In this document: positions 7,183 through 55,388 of the stretch, piece after piece
Layout: the number at the start of each line of letters is the position of its first letter
How positions within the stretch are numbered: position 1 is the first letter of the stretch
Source: Hydnum rufescens UP504
Lineage: Eukaryota; Basidiomycota; Agaricomycetes; Cantharellales; Hydnaceae
Direction: 5' to 3'
Assembly (NCBI GenBank): GCA_014904985.1
Contig: MU129055.1
Coordinates: forward strand, 62,001 to 126,000
Length of the DNA stretch: 64,000 bases
Notes under the pieces: generated by a model
Databases searched by the model: none
Told to the model about the DNA's origin: nothing
What the model saw: only the letters and a program-made list of their open reading frames with translations
Position numbers and translations under genes: made by a program

Positions 7183-10100
7183 TTAATCCAAAAATGCATA
7201 CATACTCAAGTCTTGTCCAAAAGTCTCCCGTATGTACAGAAGATTAGCACAACGTTCTTTATCAACCTGCATGTGCTCCCTCATGGATGTTTTACCTGGC
7301 CGGTTATCAGGAATATTTCTAAGCCGGGTCACTGGAAATGAAGAACGAAATGCAATGCCTGCCAGAGACTTCACCCTTGAAATAGCCACAAAAGAAAGGC
7401 CTAATGCAAAGTCCTTTGCACCAAGGTCAATTACAGCATTTTCAAGGGTCAAACCTTGACTCTTATGAACTGTGATAGCATAGGCCAAAGTCAAGGAGAA
7501 CTGAAGTCGAGAGCAAGTGCTGTTTCCTTTGTCCCATGTTGTTTTGAATGGAGGGATGGGTATGATAGGGTCATTATGGTTAGAGGATTTAAATGCTTGC
7601 CATCGTTCATCTACTGGTCCTAGTAAACATGCATAAGTTTTGGGGATGAATTGCATTAGCATAAAAGAAACTGGTATACCAGTATATCCTGGAAAGCGAA
7701 TGAGAATGGCAGCAGGAAGATCATGTTTAGGGTCACTTGTTGGACGAAATAGGATCTTTTCCACAGTTCCACGAGACCCATTCACAAGGCCTGAGGAAGT
7801 ATGTGGGTCAAAAATAGGCAAAATAAAATAAAATAAAAGAGAGCACTGACCAACATTGGTCCAAAGATTTCTTGTGAGCATGACCTTTGCCCCTTCTGAA
7901 AGCATAACTGTGTTCTCTAAACCCTCTGCATCATCTGATGAGGCCTTGGAAGCATCTGTACCATGATTTTTTGCCTTGCAAATGAGTACTGGGGTGTTGT
8001 AGGAAGCAAGTCGATGTGTATTGAAGGAATTTACACCTTCACGAGTGGGAAGAAGGTGTATTTCATTTGAAAATCTTGTTCTCTCAGCTTCAGAAAGATT
8101 ATCCCAGAAGCGAGGTTTAAGCAACTCATAGCCAGCATCAGAAAGATTCATGTCACGAATCTCCATAAGTGCATCTCGGAATGCAATTTGGGCTGGATCA
8201 TTGCCTTGCTGACGAAACACATGCTGGAGAGTGATTGAGTGTTGGATTGACTGATAGAGTGCTCTTCCCTCAACAGCCAGGTTTGTTGGGTCCTTGACAT
8301 CATAAGTTGTGAAGAGGGGGGAGTCACCAACAGGAGGCAGCTGTGCAAAGTCACCAAAAAGGAGGAGACTGTGACCAGCAAGAATTTCATCATGGAAGGC
8401 TGGCTTGAATTGGCGAGTACGGCGATCAAGCTTTCCAGCCATTTTGCGCCCCACCATTGACTTCTCATCTAGAATGATGATCTTGTAGTTTAACCAACGC
8501 CCCTGCATTCGAGCCAAATGGGTTCCAGATAGGGGTTTCCAGCCTTTCACTCCAATTGCACATCCACTGTTGATGGTGTACCCCTGAATCCCAAAGGCTG
8601 AGACACCTGTGGGTGCAAGGCGAATGACTGGTTGTGGAATGCCAAGGCTGTCTGCAAGCACCTTGAGAGATGTGCATATTGCACCAATGAGGAAAGATTT
8701 TCCTGTTCCAGCTGTTCCATCTATGTTAATGCGAAGGGGAGGTGGAGGATTTGTGCCCTCTATAGGCATTACTGTCTGTTTAATATGAGCCATGACACCC
8801 AGGAAGATTTCACGTTGTTCCCCTTTCAACAAACGATAGTCGGTGAATGGAAGTTCATTCTCAGCATCAGGAAGAGAGCGTTTCTGATCCTCAAGCCAGG
8901 ATTCTGCCTGTGCAACCAGTTCAGGGGAACCTGAATTGGTCACCCAGTCATATTGATCAACATCTCGGCTGCCCAAGTGTGTAATGTTGGCTACACCCTG
9001 ATGATTGGGAGCCAGACCTGCCTCACGCATCCAGGGGAGTATATGGTTTGCTTCCTCTGGTGGATGACCATTGTCCTCATCACTACTGGACATATTGTCA
9101 TCCTCATTTTCATGGGGAACTGGGAGACCATCATGCAGAAGATTTGGATGAGAGGTAAGGTATGTCTCCCACTCTTCAATCCATGTTGCTTCATCTTGGA
9201 GCCAGGGTTCATTTCCAAACCAAGGATGATGCAGAAGTAGTTTGCTGAAGCAATGGAGAGAATAGGAATCATCATCAGGATTTGATGAATAGCGAGGATA
9301 GATGTTGACAATGTATTCAGGTGCACGTGGGCGAGGCTTCCATCTCTCTTTAGTACCAGCAAGATCAAACTTTCTTGCAAATTCAAGAAGGCAGATATCA
9401 GCCTGAGATTGGAGGCGATCTTGATACTTCTGGCGAATTGAACGTCGTTCATGAGATGAATCACCAAAGTCCAGCAGTGTGCCTTCTTCTGGTGCAACAG
9501 AGAGACTTCGATGGGTGCGAGAAGAGACTGAGAGGGGTCTTCCAAGGAGAATATGGCAGACTTCTTGGGAAGAATAGTCACGTTCAGCAACCAGACTGGA
9601 GAGGAATTTCTGGTAGGCTCGTTTAGCACTGCTCAATCCATCCATTGGCTGGTTCAAGATAGTTGAAAGAGCATCCAGATAGCTAGCAGACTTTGACTCT
9701 GCTTTGGCAACATATTTTGAAGCATATGCCAAGACTGCATTAATGCTCAGGATTGGCTGGACATCAACATTAGCCCTCCAGCCCATGACAACAATGGGGC
9801 AGAAAGGATTCAGCAGCTCATCATTGCGACGGGTAGAAAGTTCTGGAAAGCCACGCTCATTTCTGAGGATTTCTGAGAGGTCATGTTTATTTTTGGGATA
9901 TTTGAAGCGACACTGTTCTTGTCCTGTTGATTTGTTTTTGCGAAGACAGTAGCTGGTGCATTTGGTGTGTCGTTGGAAGCGATTGAGCAGTTCTGCAAGC
10001 TCCTGCTGAGAATCTGTAAGGGTGTTCCAAAGTCGAGCAGAGGGATGAATGGGTGCTGGTGGTTGAGGAAGGTGTGGATGCCAAGTGGAAACAATGGGGT

Positions 10101-12661
10101 CCCAAAATGCAATAAATCTCTGGACACTATCATTGTCTTCAAGGTCTAAATCCTCTGGTTTGGGGGCATCATTCAGCCAAAGGAAACCATGGACATGACT
10201 GCTTCCACGCCATTGCCATTCATATCTGGAGAGTACATCAGTCTCATTAGAAGATTTGTTATTAGAAATATAAAACATACCGCCACCAGTGATCCTTTAC
10301 ATTGAACTTGACTGAGATGACCTCCTTGAAGAATAACTCCCAGCGCATTTGAAAGTAGTCTGCTGCAATTGCAGGATTCTCATTCAAATCATCTCGTCTA
10401 GTACGATATGCAGCATGTTGGGTGAGATCTTCAGCATGGGATGGCATGTGCTGATGCAGATCAGGCCATTGGAGATCTGCAGCTGATGCAGTGATGAAGA
10501 CATGAGGTGAGCCTAATTGTTGCACTGAAGCAAGGAGCTCCCTAAGTTTCTTGTTCCAGAATGGCTTTGATCCTGGTAGGTTGGTTCCTGCCTTAGCAAT
10601 TCGATTGGCCACCTGCTTCAACTCTTCCTCATTCCCACGTTGCACCATATCTCGAAGATCATCCACAGTCCATGCAGCCTCCTCACGATGTGTTGACATG
10701 TACCAAGCTGTGTCCTTCTTGGCTTCATTTCGTAAATGAGTGTTAAGGGCCCAGTATCGAAAGCGGGGATGCCTAGCAAATCTTCCATCTCCATAGTGAA
10801 GAAGATGGGCAACCCATTGTGAGAATGTGACTTTCTTGTCACGGGCCTCATTAAAGTCAGCACACCCAGTGGGGAAAAGAGAGGGAAATGCGCCAATTGC
10901 AATTTTGACATTGTCCCATTCACTTATTGGTTGCTGACCAATAGATGGCATATGAAGGACAACAGGATCTCCATTTGCTGCATTGCGAAGCTGTTCAAGT
11001 TCTGTCTGTGGTGCCATGATATTGGGTATGAATGAATGAGTGATTATGCCATGATCATCATCATTGGTTTCCCCATCCCCTGGTGGTCCAGGCTGAACAA
11101 TGGGGGCATCATTCTGGGAATTGAACTGGGAAAAGAGGTGGTGTACAGAGCCATCATGAGGGAGTTGATTAAGGTTCTGTTGGCTGAATGTGACATTGGC
11201 ATATGATGGGTGATGGGCACAGAAGAAGAGAAGCCAGTCCCTGACCACCTGGCGACGAACATGAGTGTCTTCATATACTGGTTGATTGAGGACAGTGTCA
11301 TGTGCAGTGCGACGCAGACAAACAAAGTCACACTCTTCTGGAAGAAGAGGCAGAGTTGCATAGAGGCGAGCATTGTTGCGTGGGAAGTTACAGATGTGGC
11401 CTGCATATTTTGTCTGCCCACCATGAATGCTGACAACAGACATCATGACATGGATGGGTGCAATGAGGATTTCTTCCATTGGTGTAAGGATACTGTCAGG
11501 GCATGTGGGAGGCAACCCTCCAGGATCCATGTTGTTCAAAGATGTGAACATGTCACCCTTGATACGACACCCCTTGCAGTGACCATTGACAACCCCCAGA
11601 TTGAGCCATTTTTCATGACACTTATTGCATGTCTCCTGTTGAACCTCCATAACTTTGTCCCGGAATTTTTTGACAAGATGTTGGTCTGCAGGAGATAGAG
11701 CAGGTTCATCTGGAACAAAGATGTCGAAGGGGTTGATGTCATCAAATGGGTCATCAAATGAGTCATATCCAGCTTGATCTGCATTAGAGTCATTATTTGT
11801 TGCAGGAGGGACTGGAATATCCTGGGGCTGTTGATGTCGTTGCCGATATCGTGCATCTCCTTGACGACAGTTCTCACAACGATTGCGTAAGACACCATTC
11901 CTGTCCAGAGTAAAGGCTGTGATTCGGCATGTGTGTCCACGTGAACAACGCTTCATCATTGGTGCAGGTGGAAGGGGATTGGGTGGCTCAGGGTGTGGTG
12001 GTGGTAGTGGTGGCTGATCAGGTGTTAAATGGAATGGATTTGAAGGATGTGGATGTCCAATGTTTGTATTCATGCCTCCAAATGATAGCTGCTGCATGAG
12101 TGGTTGAATCTCATCCATGGCATCATCACTCCCAGAGTCATCTGGGGAATGTGCAAGGAGAGATCTGGACATATTGTTTCCCTGGTGGGTGGGTGATTGT
12201 GGGGGTGCATAATTGGGCCGAATTCGTTGAGAGGCACGTTGATCAGCAGCTGGGGTGTGTGTCATTCGGGCAATGTGGGAGCGTGAACCAAGGATTTGTT
12301 GAGGAGGTGTTACTGGAGGAATAGGATATGCTGCAAAGGATAAATAAATTATTATAGATTTACAGCACTTTACTCTATAGGACCACATACCTGCAGGTGG
12401 TGTTCCATGATTTTGAATCTGTTGTTGCCTAGGTGCCTCAGATGGGCCAGGTTGAGTATCTAATCTCAGGCAAATTCATTCCAGAATTAATTCAATATTT
12501 AGAACTCAAACTGGGAAAAGTAACCCACCTGAAGTTTGACCCAACCTTGATGGGCCAGCACCAAGAGTCTGGCTCAATAAGTTGGCAGTGGCACGTTGCT
12601 CACGGCGCCGTTCATTCCGTCTGTCTTGTTTAGCCCCCCCCAGATCTGCATCACGAGGCAT
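7183..12661 (-). CDS. Helitron Rep/helicase transposase
   Basis: The five exons 12661-12529, 12459-12391, 12330-10281, 10225-7851 and 7790-7183 join in frame into about 1,744 codons with no internal stop; all four introns (55-69 nt) are GT-AG. The N-terminus is Pro/Ser-rich, then come two Cys clusters (CSRGHTC..RCENC and CNKCHEKW..HCKGC) and a DUF6570-like region (LTPMEEILIAPIHVMMS). The Helitron-like N/Rep domain runs through HVFITASAADLQWPD, NPAIAADYFQMRWELFF, YEWQWRGSSHVHGFLWL (HUH motif HVH, assembled across an intron) and AYASKYVAK (two-tyrosine motif). The PIF1-type helicase shows Walker A GTAGTGKS, Walker B IILDEKSM, FGDFAQLPPVGD, HVFRQ and AYAITVHKSQGLTLE. It nicks and unwinds element DNA for rolling-circle transposition. 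It appears intact and possibly active. Confidence 0.95.
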
Positions 12662-35651: not shown

Positions 35652-36738
35652 ATGTGGAAATCTATCCGCAAGCTTCTTAAAGCCGATAGCGATAAGCGCT
35701 TCAGGGTCCTCATACTTGGACCGGCGAACGCAGGAAAGACCACTCTGCTCGAGCGACTCACGGACAGCCCTGCCGGTGCGGCCATAGTGACTCGGAATGG
35801 AAAACGTGTAATTACTGTAGATGTTCAAACTCAGTAGAGATCCTGGTCTAATTCATCCCTTTATCCCAGGTCAAGGAGGTCCCCAGAGGATACGATCAAG
35901 TAAGAGCCATCCTAGCAAAGGTGCACGGCGGTTGCTCGATGCCTTCACACCATCTAGCGGGGGATCCATAATATCGACGACGAAATCACTTACGCATCCA
36001 ACCCGGCATTCATTTTCCACGACTCTGGTGGTTTTGAGGCGGGAGGGGTCGAGGAGCTCGAGGCTGTCTGGAAATTTATTCGAAAGCGCTCGTTGGTTTC
36101 GCCTTTGAAGCAGCTGCATGCGATTTGGTGCATTCACTCATGCAGTTCACACCTCTTCATATGTCGACTCATCAATTGTTACAGGCTCTGTATTCCGACA
36201 GATAATGACAGGCCCTTGGGATTCTTGCAATCAGGCTTTTTCTCCGAATCCACAGCATCAGGTATGTCCCATCAGTCGTGGCATTCAACACTATCTGTTG
36301 CGCACTGGTCCATGTATCCATTCAGTGCCTGTTATTGGAATTTTCACCAAGTTGGATGGAAGAAGGACGAAGGTGGAGATTGAGGTTCTAGGCCCTGCGG
36401 CCAGCCCATCCGATTTCCGCGATCGTGCCCAGGAGGTGGATCAGAAAGTAGCTGAATTTGTCAATGGACTCGAGACACAATTTCGCAATGAGCGGTACCC
36501 ACCTGTTGGTTTCATTGGGGTTGGAAGTATGTATACTCTATCCAAGCAGCAATTTTGGCACTTAAATCTATGGCCTAAAGACATGGATGAAGTTAGCATG
36601 CGGAGCATAACACTGTGTGACCAACTTCTTCTAGTCACTATGGATGCTCTTCCCTGTGAGACCCAGAGATCATTACTTAGGCTCACAGTTTGGAAAAGAA
36701 ACCGCCGAATTCATACCATGTTTGTTTTAAAGCGGTGA
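35652..36738 (+). CDS. P-loop GTPase of the basidiomycete G-domain family
   Basis: Small GTP-binding protein of unknown function, of a type expanded in Agaricomycetes. Exons 35652-35807, 35870-35899, 35958-36127, 36185-36261, 36326-36526 and 36581-36738 join in frame (about 263 residues). G1 P-loop: FRVLILGPANAGKTTLLERL. Then ITYASNPAFIFHDSGGFEAG (the DxxG-like switch region HDSGG), VEELEAVWKFIRKRSL, and VPVIGIFTKLDGR with G4 TKLD. No membrane segment. The stop at 36,736-36,738 overlaps a good donor (CG|GTGAGT), so further 3' exons are possible; the putative intron 36,736-36,790 begins like the tandem satellite units downstream. Confidence 0.85.
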
Positions 36739-36874
36739 GTTTGGATGTCCAACAGATTGATGGTGGCTCATGATAGTGTTTATCTCATAGTGTCCTTCAC
36801 GCTGGAACTCTAGGTCCTGTCTCAAGCTGTATTGATGAGATGACGGTACAATTTGACTATGTTCAGGGAGCATT
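36739..36874. other. boundary between GTPase gene and satellite locus
   Basis: Contains an intron-like segment beginning GTGAGTTTGGATGTCC and ending CTCATAG (about 36,736-36,790) and another ending GTTCAG (36,861-36,866) just before the ATG at 36875. It marks the last CpG-containing DNA before the CpG-free block. Confidence 0.4.
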
Positions 36875-39800
36875 ATGGCTGGAACCCGACAGCCTGTGCA
36901 AGATGAAGAATCAGAGTTACATGCAGACTGGGGTTTCAGGATTCTTATGGTGAGTGAATATATCCCTTGCACAACATTTAAGGTACTGATTGTATCATGG
37001 GGCTATAACTGTGGCACCTGGTTCTGACAATATGACACATAATTTACTCATTGGATGGTGTTGACAACATAGGAGGTATGGCTGCAGGTGTTCACATTTG
37101 GTGCACAATCATTGGCTTACATGTCTCTTTGGGACACTGTCAATGTAGTTGGTCAGTCTGGATCTTGAATACATGGTCACTGACTGACATAATTTTTTCT
37201 GCCATTGGGAACACAGTATGTAAGTCCAGATCTCCCCCAATTCCATGCATAGTCATTCCCTGATACAGCTTCTGGTGGAATCCACAACACAGGGGGTGAG
37301 TTTATGTCTCTTAGTTGATATGAGGTGGCTGTATATCTTTTGGTGGCATGGATAACATAGCATGTGAGCATGGATCTCCCACCTTTAGATCCACACTGTC
37401 ACCAGCTGATATATTCCTTGGTGACATCAACCATGTAGGAGGTAGGACTGTACCTGTCATAGTTTTATATGTGGTCACTAGCTGATAGAACATTTGGTGG
37501 CATGAACATAGGATGTGGGTTGGATTCCCCACCCTTCAATGTGATATGGCTGACTCATACATCTTTTCCATGGCATAAACAACATAGCTTGTATGTCCAG
37601 ATGTCTTGGAATTTGATGCATGGCCACTGACTGATAAATATTTTATTGGCATTCACACTGTAGTATGTAAGTGTGAATTCAGCATGAGATCCATGGTTGA
37701 TACATCATTATGTGCAATGGATAAAATAGGAGGTCAGTCCATATCTCCCACCTTTCATTGGTGATTGTTGGCCAATGCACCATTTGGTGACATGGATAAT
37801 GTAGTATGTAAGTAGGAATTTCCTATAAGTGAGCACCTGGTCACTGGTTGATCCATCATTCAATGGCATGGACAATGTAGAAAGTAAGCCTGGATCCCTT
37901 ACAATTAGATGTGCTTGGGCAGGCTGATATCTCTTTGTCTGTCATGGACAATGTAGGGAGTAAGTTCAGATCTCTCACAATCTGATGCATGGTCCCTCAT
38001 TTGTACATCATTTGGCATTGACACCACAGCCTGTAAGTTTGGGTATCTCCCAATTTGTTGAGTATGGTCACTGGCTAATACATTGTTGGATAACACTGAT
38101 AATATAGGATGTAAGTCTGGATCTCCTCCCCCTTGATGCACTATCACTGGCTGACACATCACTGGATGACATAAATAACCAAGAATGTGGGCTGTCTTTC
38201 AATTTTGTGCTTGATCATTGACTGATCCATCTTCTGGTGGCACTGACAACATAGAATGTAAATCTGAATTTCTGACAATTCAATCTATTGTTGGCTAATA
38301 TATCTTTTGGTGATGTTGACAATGGAGGCTGTATGTTTGGCTCTTTTCCAATGAAAAGTACTGGTGCAGACTAATATCTTGGTCTGAATGGACAATGCAG
38401 GAAGTAGGGCTGGATTTCACAATTTAATGCATGGTCACTGTCTGATACATTGTTTATTCCCATTGACAATGTAGCATGTAAGTTCAGATCCCTGCTAGTT
38501 AAACATGGGATCACTGGCTAATATATTCTTTGGTGACATTGATAATGTAGCATGTAGGTTCTGCTGCCACTTTGATGCACAATCACTGGCTGATACATTC
38601 TGGATGAACTTGATGATATAGGAAGTGAGCCTGGCTCACTTTTGACTCAGTCTGTGGTGACTTGCTGATCTCACCAATGGCATCAACAATGTAGCTGGTG
38701 GGCCCAGGAGTTCTGACAATTTGATGCAGGAGTGCTGGCTGATTCATCATCTGGTTGCATTCACAATGTAGGAAGTGAGTGACCTCCCCCACCACTTGAT
38801 GTATAGGTGTTGGCTGATACACTGCCTGCTGGTGTCACAAATGTAGACTGTGTGTTGAGATCTCTTTGAATTTAATGTGAGGTCATTGACTGATACACTG
38901 TTTGGTGGCATGGACAATGTAAGTTGGTGAGATTGCATTTACCACCATTCATTGAGTGGGCCTCAGTTGTTATACTTGTGTGGCCTTAACACCATAGTAT
39001 GTAAGTCCACATCTCAGTCTGATTCATGCATGGTGTCTGCCTGATTCAGTGTTTGGTGGCTTCTGGAAACAAGAGGGTAGGTCTGGATACATGAATTCCA
39101 TATATGACTGCTAGCTGATGTATCATTTCATGGTTTTGACAACACAGAGGGTAAGATGGGATCCCTGAGAATTTGATGTAAGGTGCTGATTGGTTGGTCA
39201 ACCTGAACACTGTAGGATGTAAGTGCATATCACCCTCCTGGTTATGAGTTGATACATCTTTGGGTGGCATTGAAAATGTAGGAAGTAAGTGTCTGAATGT
39301 CTGAGAATTTGACAGATCATCCCTTGCTGATTTGCCATTTGGTGGCATTAACAACATAGATTGTAAGTGTGGATGTCATTGAATTCAATGGAGTGTCCCT
39401 TGCCAACTCATCATTTGGTGCCATTGACCACATAGCTTGTAAGTGTGGAGGTCATAGAATTTGATGGATTGTCCCTTGCTGATTCATCATTTGGTGCTGT
39501 TGACCACATAGGCTGTAAGTGTGGATATCATAGAATTCAATGGATTGTCCCTTGCTGATTCATCTTTTGGTGCCATTGACCACATAGCATGTAAGTGTGG
39601 AGGTCATAGAATTCAATGGATTATCTCTTGCTGATTCATCATTTGGTGCCATTGACCACATAGCTTGTAAGTGTGGATCAGAATTCAATGGATTCTCTCT
39701 TGCTGATTCATCATTTGGCATCATTGACCACATAGGATGTAAGTGTGGATGTCATTGAATTCAATGGAGTGTCCCTTGCTGATTCATCATTTGGTGCCAT

Positions 39801-42487
39801 TGACCACATAGCCTGTAAGGGTGGATATCATAGAATTCAATGGATTGCCCCTTACTGATTCATCATTTGGTTCCATTGACCACATAGAATGTAGGTGTGG
39901 ATGTCATAGAGTTCAATGGATTATCCCTTGCTGACCCATCATTTGGTGCCATTGACCACATAGGATGTGAGTGTGGATGTCATAGAATTCAATGGATTAT
40001 CCCTTACTGATTCATCATTTGGTGCCATTGACCACACAGCATGTAAGTGTGAATGTCATAGAGATCAATGGATTGTCCCTTGCTGACTCATCATTTGGCC
40101 CCATTGACCACATAGCTTGTATGTGTGGATGTCATAGAATTCAATGGATTGTTCTTTGCTGATTCATCATTTGGTGCCACTGATGACATAGCTTGTAAGT
40201 GTGGATGTCATAGAATTCAATGGATTGCCCCTTGCTGATCCATCATTTGGTGCCATTGACCACATAGCTTGTAAGTGTGGATGTCATAGAATTTAATGAA
40301 TTGTCCCTTGCTGATTCATCATTTGGTGCCATTGACCACATAGGAAGTAAGTGCAGATGTCATAGAATCCAATGGATTGTCCCTTGCTGATTCATCATTT
40401 GGTGCCATTGACCACATAGGATGTAAGTGTGGATGTCATAGAATTTAATGGATTGTCCCTTGCTGATTCATCATTTGGTGCCATTGACCACATAGCATGT
40501 AAGTGTGGATGTCATTGAATTCCATGGATTGTCCCTTACTGACTCATCAGTTGGTGCCATTGACCACACAGGATGTAAGTGTGGATGTCATAGAGATCAA
40601 TGGATTGTCCCTTGCTGACTCATCATTTGGTGCTGTTGACCACATAGTATGTAAGTGTGGATGTCATAGAATTCAATGGATTGTCCCTTACTGACCTATC
40701 ATTTGGTGCCATTGACCACATAGCATGTAAGTGTGGATGTCATAGAGATCAATGGATTGTCCCTTGCTGACCCATCATTTGGTGCCATTGACCACATAGC
40801 ATGTAAGTGTGGATGTCATAGAGTTCAATGGATTGTCCCTTGCTGACTCATCATTTGGTGCCATTGACCACATAGGATGTGAGTGTGGATGTCATAGAAT
40901 TCAATGGATCATCCCTTGCTGATTCATCATTTGGTGCCATTGACCACATAGCTTGTAAGTGTGGATGTCATAGAATTCAATGGATCATCCCTTGCTGATT
41001 CATCATTTGGTGCCATTGACCACATAGTATGTAAGTGTGGATGTCATAGAATTCAATGATCATCCCTTGCTGATTCATCATCTGGTGCCATTGACCACAT
41101 AGCATGTAAGTGTGGATATCATAGAATTCAATGGGTTATCTCTTGCTGATTCATCATTTGGTGCCATTGACCCCATAGCTTGTAAGTGTGGATGTCATAG
41201 AATTCAATGGATTGTCCCTTGCTGATTCATCAGTGGGTACCAATGACCACATAGGCTGTAAGTGTGGATGTCATAGAATTCAGTGGATTGTCCCTTGCTG
41301 ATCCATCAATGGGTGCCATTGACCCCATAGCTTGTAAGTGTGGATGTCATAGAATTCAAGGGATTGTCCCCTGCTGATTCATCATTTGGTGCCATTGACC
41401 ACATAGTATGTAAGTGTGGATGTCATAGAATTCAATGGATTGTTCCTTGCTGATTCATCTTTTGGTGATATTGACAACCTAGGTTGTAAGTCCAGATCTC
41501 TTAGAATTTGATGCATCTTCTTCACCAATTCATCTTTTCATTTCATTGACATTGTAGCAAGTGAGTCTGAATGTCTTGGAATTCAATCCATTGTCCTTTG
41601 CTGATTTCCCTTTTTAATGATAATGCAGCCTGTAAGTCCAGATGTCTCACAATTCTATTCACCCTTACTTGATCATGTCCCACTTGGTGGTTTTGTCCCA
41701 TAGGAGGTCAGTCCACACCTCCCACTCTTGGATTTGTGATCTCTGGACAATCTCTTATTTCACTACATCTACAACCTAGCATGTATGTCCCCTCTCTTAC
41801 TATTTGGTGCATGGTCCTGGCTCATACACATCTCACTGACATTCACAATGTTAGCTTGTGAGTTCATAAATTTATACAATGGAACAATATCCTATTTTTT
41901 GGCTGCACTCCTTATACTTGGATTTATTACAGGATAATGTAAGTTACATCTAATGTGCCAAAGCCAAATGATTCTGTGTAATTGCAGTCTCATCATTGCT
42001 CTCCTCTTATCTGGTAAATATTGTCAAGCCTCACCTCCATCCTTGTCCTTATATCTCCCAAATTTTATTAGGTGCTCAAATATTCAGGCAGTCAAGGCCT
42101 GTGTGCCCTTCCTCAAACTGTTGGTCAGTTTAGGTTCTTGTTCATTTCCCCCCTCCAGGATGTCTAAGCAACCATTCCAGCATCACCTGCCTATTCCACC
42201 ACACCCAAATCTTCAATATCTGGTGTTTATTTGTTGTCAGGGTTGTGACTAATTCTAACTGTGGAAGAGATTGCTGATCTTGGCTTGTTAATCCAGTGGT
42301 CATCCTTTGGATTCGGAGGGGGAGGAATGCTGATTCACCTGATGCATCTGAAATAGAGCACACCACTAACTTGGTCCAGGCTCAAATCAGGGGTGAATTG
42401 GTGGATTATGGAGATTTTCAAGCACTAGACTCATATGCCACTGCAGACAGACTGGCAAGGATCATTGATGGCTACACACCAATGTAA
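36875..42487 (+). CDS. putative gene with a chain of 65 single-codon exons
   Basis: First exon 36875-36949 (ATG, 25 codons, begins MAGTRQPVQDEESE, ends ATG|GTGAGT). Then come 65 consecutive 3-nt segments, each exactly between an AG and a GT donor (mostly GTAAGT or GTGAGT), at 66-78 bp spacing from 37,073 to about 41,855, and one 6-nt segment (GATAAT, 41,933-41,938). Longer exons follow: 41988-42013, 42072-42123, 42181 (or 42169)-42241 and 42297-42487 ending in TAA. Phase is kept throughout: about 201-205 codons. None of the 65 triplets is a stop (10 CTT, 10 CAT, 8 GAT, 7 TAT, 5 GAA and others: rich in Leu, His, Glu, Asp, Tyr). The last two exons join into a hydrophobic stretch, LQYLVFICCQVVILWIRRGR, a possible membrane helix, followed by a charged tail. 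No homologue is recognised. It may instead be a non-coding satellite; transcripts are needed. Confidence 0.4.
37073..41938 (+). repeat. tandem array of ~76-bp intron-like units
   Basis: About 66 head-to-tail units. The core 39,360-41,490 is nearly homogeneous with a strict 76-bp period (one 72-bp and one 75-bp unit); the flanks (37,073-39,360 and 41,490-41,940) are diverged with 66-83 bp spacing. A consensus unit starts GTAAGTGTGGATGTCATAG, contains TTGCTGATTCATC (a branch-point-like CTGAT) and ends GCCATTGACCACATAG plus three bases. No CG dinucleotide was seen anywhere in the array. Confidence 0.95.
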
Positions 42488-42847
42488 TGTGTGCAGAATA
42501 CATGTATCAAGTCAAGAGATATCCTCCAATGTTATTAGTTGTCAATCCTTATCTCTGCTGGCCTGATCCACTCAGAGGTGGAGGTCAGTCTCAATGGATC
42601 AGGTGTGATACCCATGCAGCACAGTGTAATAAAGCACTGTGAATTGGATGGATAGACCATTGTAAAGTGAGAGTAGTTGAACACATGGAAAAAGGGAAGT
42701 GCATAGGGAGGTATAGGTAGGGTCTTCAAGTCAGTTGAACTGAGGACCTGCTACAAAGTGCTGTAGAAAATGCTTTAAAGCTCTGCAGAAATTACTAACA
42801 CCAGATGTTGGCTAAGGTTATAGGGATTGGGAATGAAAAGATATGGG
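42488..42847. other. flank of LTR copy, no supported gene
   Basis: CpG-poor DNA without a recognisable gene. On the minus strand it lies directly downstream of an LTR. Confidence 0.35.
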
Positions 42848-51257: not shown

Positions 51258-51990
51258 AAGCCCTGAAAGGATCTTCATGGTATTGGATCCCTCTGGCTCT
51301 ATCAGCATGAGGTGCTCTTGGTGGTAAGCAGGAGTTATACACCCCAGAGTGACCTTGAGAGCTCTGCAAATGATGTTGCAGAGATTTTGAGCAAGCATTC
51401 TGGGGTGTTCTGCTTGGACTTCGTGAACAGCTGCAAGAATGTTGTGGATTGGGTAGACAAGAAGAGCGAGCATGCTCAAGCTGGACAGCAGCCAAAGTGA
51501 GAGGAGAAACACATGGAGGAGTGATGGGGGGATCGTGAGGAGAATGGCAAGGAGAACTGCGAGGAGAATTGCAAGAGTGGTGGGGGGAATCATGAGGAGA
51601 ATTGTGAGGAGAACCGCAAGGGGAATTGAGAGAGCAATGGGGGGGATCATGAGGAGAATTGTGAGGAGAACTGCAAGGAGAATTGCAAGAGTGGCAGGGG
51701 GAATCACAAGGAGAATTGTGAGGAGAGAGATTGGGGGAATTAGCATCAGGGGCCTTAGCATCAGGGGCATTAGGAAGCAGAGGATGAGGAGAGATATCAG
51801 AGACCAAAGAGACATGAGGAGATGTAGGATGAGAGATGTTCATCCTCTCCATTGCTGCCTTAACCACAGCCTCTGCATTGAGTTTCTCCTGTTCAACTGC
51901 AACTCAATGGGCCTCATTCCTTTGCTCCCATTCTTCACCAAGCTTCTGAACCTTTGTGAGCCTCTTGTTGTAGTGCTGTGGAAGATAAAA
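51184..51990 (-). pseudogene. repeat-rich hypothetical gene segment with in-frame TGA
   Basis: The minus-strand frame from about 51,985 reads KRLTKVQKLGEEWEQRNEAH, meets TGA at 51,904-51,906, then continues VAVEQEKLNAEAVVKAAMER and a Ser/Pro/His/Asn-rich repeat region coded by the 51,525-51,730 minisatellite. The N-terminal part looks like a coiled coil. No function inferred. CGA to TGA decay would explain the stop. Confidence 0.45.
51525..51730. repeat. GAGGAGAATTG minisatellite
   Basis: Imperfect copies of ATGAGGAGAATTGTGAGGAG and GCAAGGAGAATTGCAAGAG words. A similar GGGGATTGG..AAGG array is at 60,640-60,850. Confidence 0.85.
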
Positions 51991-55179: not shown

Positions 55180-55388
55180 CAAATTCAAAGTTGCTGAAGG
55201 TTCCAAATTCGAAGCCATTGAATGGTCCAAATTTGAAGTTCCCAAATAATTCAAACTTGAACTTGCTGGAGGCTCCAATATTGAACTTGCTGGAGGATCC
55301 AATCTCGAACCTGCTGGAGGACCCAATCTTGAACTTGCTGGAGGGTCCAATCTCAGACCTGCTGGAGGACCCAATCTTGAACTCGCTG
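55180..55388. repeat. ~27-bp coding minisatellite
   Basis: Copies of GCTGGAGGACCCAATCTTGA encode repeated Leu-Asp-Pro-Pro-Ala-Ser-Ser-like units on the minus strand. The array resumes at 55,921-55,970 beyond the inserted LTR. Confidence 0.85.

Follow-up and report, generated by a model that had tools for sequence, protein, structure and literature searches.

The window, a stretch of 64,000 nucleotides (nt) from contig MU129055.1 of Hydnum rufescens UP504, carries on its forward strand a gene whose predicted product joins a GTPase to a long array of separately encoded residues. The full gene model (35,652-42,487) comprises 77 exons, 458 amino acids and 76 introns, every one GT-AG, with intron lengths from 53 to 149 nt (median 73). 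Residues 1-298 are assigned to the GTPase and 299-363 to the array, followed by a hydrophobic segment and a charged tail; the array contributes 195 of the 1377 nt of coding sequence. Judged from sequence comparison, this is very probably a member of a protein-coding GTPase gene family in which each codon of the array is a 3-nt exon of its own between GT-AG introns of about 73 nt. Consecutive in-phase single-codon exons had been the core claim of an earlier note on this DNA, and the claim is upheld by splice-site conservation, stop avoidance, codon-level selection and a motif kept in distant paralogs.

Copies of the gene were sought in the 63.2-Mb assembly (539 contigs). A DNA search with positions 37000-38500 found at least 39 distinct loci including the window, a lower bound since 40 of 97 candidates were scored, and a search with the GTPase part found at least 11 further loci. 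The comparisons below cover 21 copies, namely the window and L009-L028 (20 of the 38 remaining loci), together with six of the 11 loci added by the GTPase search. The features of the gene in the window are as follows.

35652-35807, forward strand: exon 1, with the ATG start and the P-loop GPANAGKTT; third codon position fastest over the 21 copies.
35870-35899, forward strand: exon 2, 30 nt; in 19 of 21 copies this exon and the rest of exons 1-8 are open, with canonical splice sites.
35958-36127, forward strand: exon 3, with the DSGG motif; third-position rates, and intact within exons 1-8 as above.
36185-36261, forward strand: exon 4; the same two lines of evidence as exon 3.
36326-36526, forward strand: exon 5, with the TKLD motif; supported by its translation and by the neighbouring intron.
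36581-36734, forward strand: exon 6; intact within exons 1-8 in 19 of 21 copies.
36791-36813, forward strand: exon 7, 23 nt; GT and AG of the following intron.
36867-36949, forward strand: exon 8, 83 nt, ending in phase 0 at a GTGAGT donor; open in 20 of 21 copies in the phase-0 frame.
37073-39284, forward strand: 31 single-codon exons, the conserved part (ELYGHEDLYEYKGPDNNAEHHELETLYRRDE), with diverged introns between; chain, splice-site conservation, segmentation, motif and indels.
39285-41483, forward strand: 29 more single-codon exons, the last at 41483-41485; tandem repeat and codon variation.
41558-41857, forward strand: the final five single-codon exons, CAA CCT GAG CAT CTT (QPEHL), present in most copies reaching that end.
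41933-41938, forward strand: 6-nt exon GATAAT; both of its splice sites are present in 15 of 15 tails.
42088-42123, forward strand: 36-nt exon AVKACVPFLKLL; its length is 36 nt in 15 of 15 tails.
42181-42235, forward strand: 55-nt exon in which the hydrophobic segment begins (LQYLVFIC); tail comparison.
42297-42487, forward strand: last exon, 191 nt, with LVILWIRRGR, the charged tail and the TAA stop; tail comparison.

The three GTPase motifs in the window translation, GPANAGKTT, DSGG and TKLD, are G1, G3 and G4. Pfam GTPase profiles match weakly, narrowly below their curated cut-offs (Arf, 21.8 bits against 22.3; MMR_HSR1, 18.2 against 21.9), and the best PDB matches are mt-EngA and Arl3, with E values from 3e-4 to 1e-3. 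WD40 was absent from the Pfam scan of the 458-residue model, in which a STAND profile reached E 0.12, below cut-off. The intron at 36527-36580 is predicted from GT and AG ends in 21 of 21 copies, with frame-breaking indels inside it. The GTPase exons move the start of the gene: the earlier note had it begin at 36875 with a 75-nt ATG exon ahead of the chain, a proposal that fails, as this ATG sits within the internal exon 8 and the model starts at 35652. At the other end, the note had described a 6-nt exon and four longer ones; the 6-nt exon stands, but the longer ones number three (36, 55 and 191 nt), and a 26-nt exon placed near 41,988 is open to doubt, its acceptor AG being present in only 6 of 15 copies. 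The tail exons are in frame in phase 0, so that phase is kept to the TAA at 42,487 as the note had held, and the last exons do encode a hydrophobic segment and then a charged tail. Tails are open in 13 of 15 copies as far as seen (L014 ends at a locus edge), changes in the 36-nt exon are mostly silent, and indels in the last exon of distant copies range from 12 to 34 nt, most of them a multiple of three.

Within the array, 65 AG-NNN-GT sites form one chain from 37,071 to 41,859. The 65 places given in the earlier note (37,073 to about 41,855) were all recovered by a pattern count, which found 73 such strings in 37000-41900, eight of them off the chain, and no stop codon was counted among the 65 triplets, again as the note had it. 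Sites are 66-78 bp apart in the diverged parts, the same range as in the note, and mostly 76 bp apart in the young part. When a donor-like GTNNG is demanded, a spacing of 3 yields 65 sites with a longest chain of 48, a spacing of 7 yields 35 because of the second GT in GTAAGT, and each other spacing from 1 to 12 yields at most 4. A tandem block at 39,320-41,491 repeats a 76-bp period 28.6 times (89% matches). It forms the hypervariable middle of the array, amplified recently, with near-identical introns and near-random codons. The 28.6 copies are recent and do not represent independent events.

Copying alone preserves spacing in a tandem repeat, and the array might then be a minisatellite within one large intron (36950-41932), removed whole or stepwise, whose triplets never reach protein. 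Such an intron would also fit the lack of CpG in the array and the survival of the frame under any skipping of units, the end of exon 8 and the start of the 6-nt exon both being in phase 0. The old part of the array argues otherwise. Its 28 introns in the window have a mean pairwise identity of 65% (57% when one of the pair is shuffled) and nine different lengths from 63 to 75 nt, and still the exon between them stays 3 nt long, which is independent evidence for the spacing. A segmentation in which exons of 1-15 nt were permitted returned 3 nt for 65 of 65 exons in the window and for 1442 of 1525 over the 21 copies. Two distant paralogs keep the spacing as well, L029 in 35 of 36 exons and L030 in 37 of 37. 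In 29 units of 14 copies (L016 excluded from 15), the intron rate would predict 12.3 indel events in the AG-NNN-GT core, and 2 are seen. Splice sites are likewise constrained: over 31 old units in 15 copies the minor-base fraction is 0.009 and 0.004 at the AG, 0.000 and 0.004 at the GT and 0.009 at the +5 G, against 0.062 in intron interiors. The large intron is further opposed by the codon-level results given below, namely the absence of stops and of TAN purines, the behaviour of third bases and a motif retained in distant paralogs. Taken together, it is a very improbable explanation.

How the triplets are read depends on the frame in which the array is entered. Exon 8 brings the GTPase frame into the array in phase 0, and the tail exons depart in phase 0. 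If 36791-36949 is taken as a single exon instead, the array is entered in phase 2 and reads as a sequence rich in I, L, M and F, that is, the triplets would be translated into a long hydrophobic segment. This single exon has stops in distant copies. These stops disappear with an intron at 36814-36866, whose GT and AG ends are present in 21 of 21 copies, and exon 8 then reads open in phase 0 in 20 of 21; since the tail also needs phase 0, each triplet is then one codon. Stops number 0 in 1394 in phase 0 (44 expected from position shuffles, an expectation in which related copies are not independent), 277 in the third frame and 2 in 1351 in phase 2, so few that stop counts alone do not separate phase 0 from phase 2. 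However, the tail is coherent in phase 0 only, and in phase 2 the first base of the triplet would fall at a third codon position, although its variability equals that of the second. Phase 2 would also leave unexplained the coupling by which CAA, GAA and TGG are present without TAA and TGA. The hydrophobic reading was dropped on the intron, the phase-0 tail and the codon-level variation, and it is hardly credible. Translation of the array in the phase-0 frame is well supported by these comparisons.

The triplets themselves behave as codons. Not one of 1514 triplets over the copies is a stop, and TAN is TAT in 132 of 132 cases, while purine endings occur in 68 of 235 CAN, 192 of 357 GAN and 32 of 86 AAN; TGN ends in T 8 times, in G 22 times and never in A. 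Counted as copies with any purine in the middle part, the values are 0 of 12 for TAN, 7 of 20 for CAN, 13 of 21 for GAN and 1 of 8 for AAN. In the middle units of 17 copies, the third base is other than T in 12 of 232 fourfold-degenerate codons (5.2%), which matches the intron minor fraction of 4.7%, and in 69 of 190 CA, GA, TG and AA codons (36%). The excess appears in 13 of the 14 copies having any non-T base. It persists when repeats of a triplet type within a copy are collapsed to one (15 of 105 against 30 of 80; Fisher p 0.0005) and when every split box in all middle units is included (18 of 340 against 98 of 345). Third bases thus vary where the amino acid changes and stay at the intron level where the change is silent, a pattern that indicates diversifying selection on translated codons for amino-acid change. 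C at the third base occurs once in 1394, as expected with loss of CpG, since such a C would precede the G of the donor. At the first two codon bases of the middle, pi is 0.45-0.81, against mean values of 0.015-0.148 in introns (measured in the 17 of 21 copies whose homogenised units were numerous enough).

The two ends of the array are constant. About 31 first and about six last codons are common to copies, reading approximately ELYGHEDLYEYKGPDNNAEHHELExxYRxDE and VQPEDL, whereas the middle is unlike even between copies up to 97% alike; between copies that are 96-97% alike, middle parts share runs of just 2-5 codons. The exception is the closest pair, L023 and L024 (98.7%, short arrays), which has more of the middle in common. 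The motif ELYGxExxYxY is found in 23 of 23 copies that the parser could read through, even where intron identity falls to 73% (L010 has ELYA), and the paralogs L029 and L030 retain ELYGxExDYxY.

Besides the stop counts in phase 2, several observations weigh against single-codon exons translated throughout the family. Five of the 21 copies have five or more exons that are not 3 nt long (L018, 26; L026, 19; L028, 12; L023 and L024, 5 each); three of them, L018, L023 and L026, retain intact GTPase exons. The earlier note had held that the 3-nt spacing never changes, which is true of the window (65 of 65) and not of these five copies; the loss of spacing that it had named as contrary evidence thus occurs in a minority. 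Arrays are perfect in 8 of 21 copies, or in 10 when a GC donor is allowed. Several of the deviating parses are 3-nt exons with a GC donor; in L012, L021 and L022, some exons parsed as 7 nt read NNTGCAA, a 3-nt exon followed by such a donor. At the codon level, AA boxes have a purine in only 1 of 8 copies after duplicates are removed, the third-base contrast is reversed in L022, and the TT and AT boxes have no non-T excess (0 of 12 and 2 of 17), so that NAN and TGN codons carry most of the effect. Across the old units common to the copies, triplet positions 1, 2 and 3 vary at 0.085, 0.079 and 0.048 against 0.062 in introns; first and second bases vary about as introns do, and purifying selection there is argued from the motif, not from rates. 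The same values lend no support to ongoing hypermutation of triplets. The introns bordering the array, 123 and 149 nt long, may conceal more exons. Finally, CpG is entirely missing from the 4.8 kb at 37073-41860 (observed/expected 0.00, compared with 0.85 in GTPase exons 1-5 and 0.82 in window positions 1-30000), which suggests methylation, perhaps silencing.

This depletion, together with L024 and L028, in which broken GTPase exons accompany odd-length array exons, would also suit a family of pseudogenes, spread by duplication and in decay, whose regular structure is a remnant. Against decay, 19 of 21 copies retain eight open GTPase exons flanked by canonical splice sites, and exons 1, 3 and 4, where third positions vary most, show codon-position rates typical of selection. 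General decay is therefore rated very unlikely, a little more so than the large intron, and a coding family remains the preferred reading.

The number of parsed exons per copy varies from 38 to 105. Among the six extra GTPase loci, L029, L030, L031 and L033 have arrays, L032 breaks off after exon 6 and L034 is fragmentary; an intact paralog free of an array was sought among these six and none was found. The GTPases of L029 and L030 are about 65-70% identical over residues 140-264. A strict three-unit pattern matched the genome 633 times forward and 348 times in reverse, compared with 0 and 51 when this pattern is read backwards, and another array, at G000:C2:726103-728328, turned up among the pattern matches listed. 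The 73-nt intron has 890 matches in the genome, and among the matches listed all lie on array-bearing contigs. Growth of the array by insertion of introners into an existing exon was considered and rejected, as codon number varies and no long undivided array exon was seen. In L026 the constant block (YxYKASDN..EHDQLEEAYRQDGP) is present twice in one array, a larger internal duplication. Similarity of the window to several copies ends at 42628, and other copies share sequence past that base; the window copy may be the one broken there.

Elsewhere in the window, a Helitron lies at 7183-12388 on the minus strand, with a PIF1-like helicase open reading frame (ORF) and a Helitron_like_N ORF, and an ORF at 20464-21516 matches a RhoGAP domain. 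Further tandem repeats at 51519-51726 and 55252-55388 have periods of 57 bp and 24/48 bp, multiples of three. Rfam and tRNA scans of the window gave no matches. A hydrophobin profile, run as a clue to the kind of organism, matched nothing in the genome and nothing in 14 controls, and so carries no information.

If the coding reading is correct, splicing of the array is probably complete and may proceed by intron definition, with introns recognised singly and taken out in turn. Each splice would append one codon to a lengthening exon, and no 3-nt exon would need to be recognised as such: short introns of the fungal kind would be the recognition units and the 3-nt exon merely the seam between two of them. 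The repeat unit is one intron plus one codon, so recombination would gain, lose or swap whole codons without shifting the frame. Exchange between near-identical introns, whether by unequal recombination or by gene conversion, would alter the number and order of codons. Concerted evolution would hold the introns alike while selection holds the codons unlike, retaining the first 31 or so and the last six or so and diversifying the middle into a private hypervariable stretch in each copy.

A run of one-codon exons was not found in a search of openly licensed PubMed Central papers. The components are known, and the arrangement, with introns conserved and single codons variable, fits no known kind that was found. 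In the PRDM9 zinc-finger minisatellite, positive selection likewise acts on hypervariable positions of a repeat array, but that array is one continuous exon. Schistosome micro-exon genes (MEGs), as described in an excerpt of PMC4350168, also have tandem tiny symmetrical exons, a frame proof against skipping and fast evolution. Micro-exons form most of their coding region, in contrast to 195 of 1377 nt here, and the present array differs further in its 65 successive exons of exactly one codon, all in phase 0, and in its near-identical introns. The bicycle and megacycle genes of aphids form a rapidly diverging family with many small exons, up to 118 per gene (2092 amino acids in 118 exons); their internal exons each span many residues and lie in phase 2 (PMC9168663), unlike the phase-0, one-residue exons of the array. 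In fungi, the hnwd nonself-recognition genes have repeats homogenised by recombination with a few codons under diversifying selection; what is conserved in their repeat is protein sequence (WD40, in a NOD-like receptor; PMC2873952), whereas here it is the intron, with one protein codon per unit. Fungal splicing of exons of 1-3 nt has been shown or claimed for a 1-nt exon in Fusarium CYP621A and two 3-nt exons in Dactylellina lipS; these tiny exons are isolated and form no run in the excerpts concerned (PMC12940212, PMC5639578).

By analogy with fungal nonself-recognition genes, we would guess at a recognition role for the product. The wider proposal, that this is a codon-shuffling family in which an intron-plus-codon minisatellite rewrites the protein residue by residue and the private domain recognises self, partners or parasites, has about an even chance of being right. 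Gene finders and read mappers are unable to represent one-codon exons, and similar genes may therefore hide elsewhere. If the structure is as proposed, it would surpass in length every known run of exons of the smallest useful size and offer an extreme test case for splicing, and variable skipping of one-codon exons could yield extra combinations from each gene. It would also be a new route to protein diversity, in which introns serve as the substrate of recombination and codons are the cargo.

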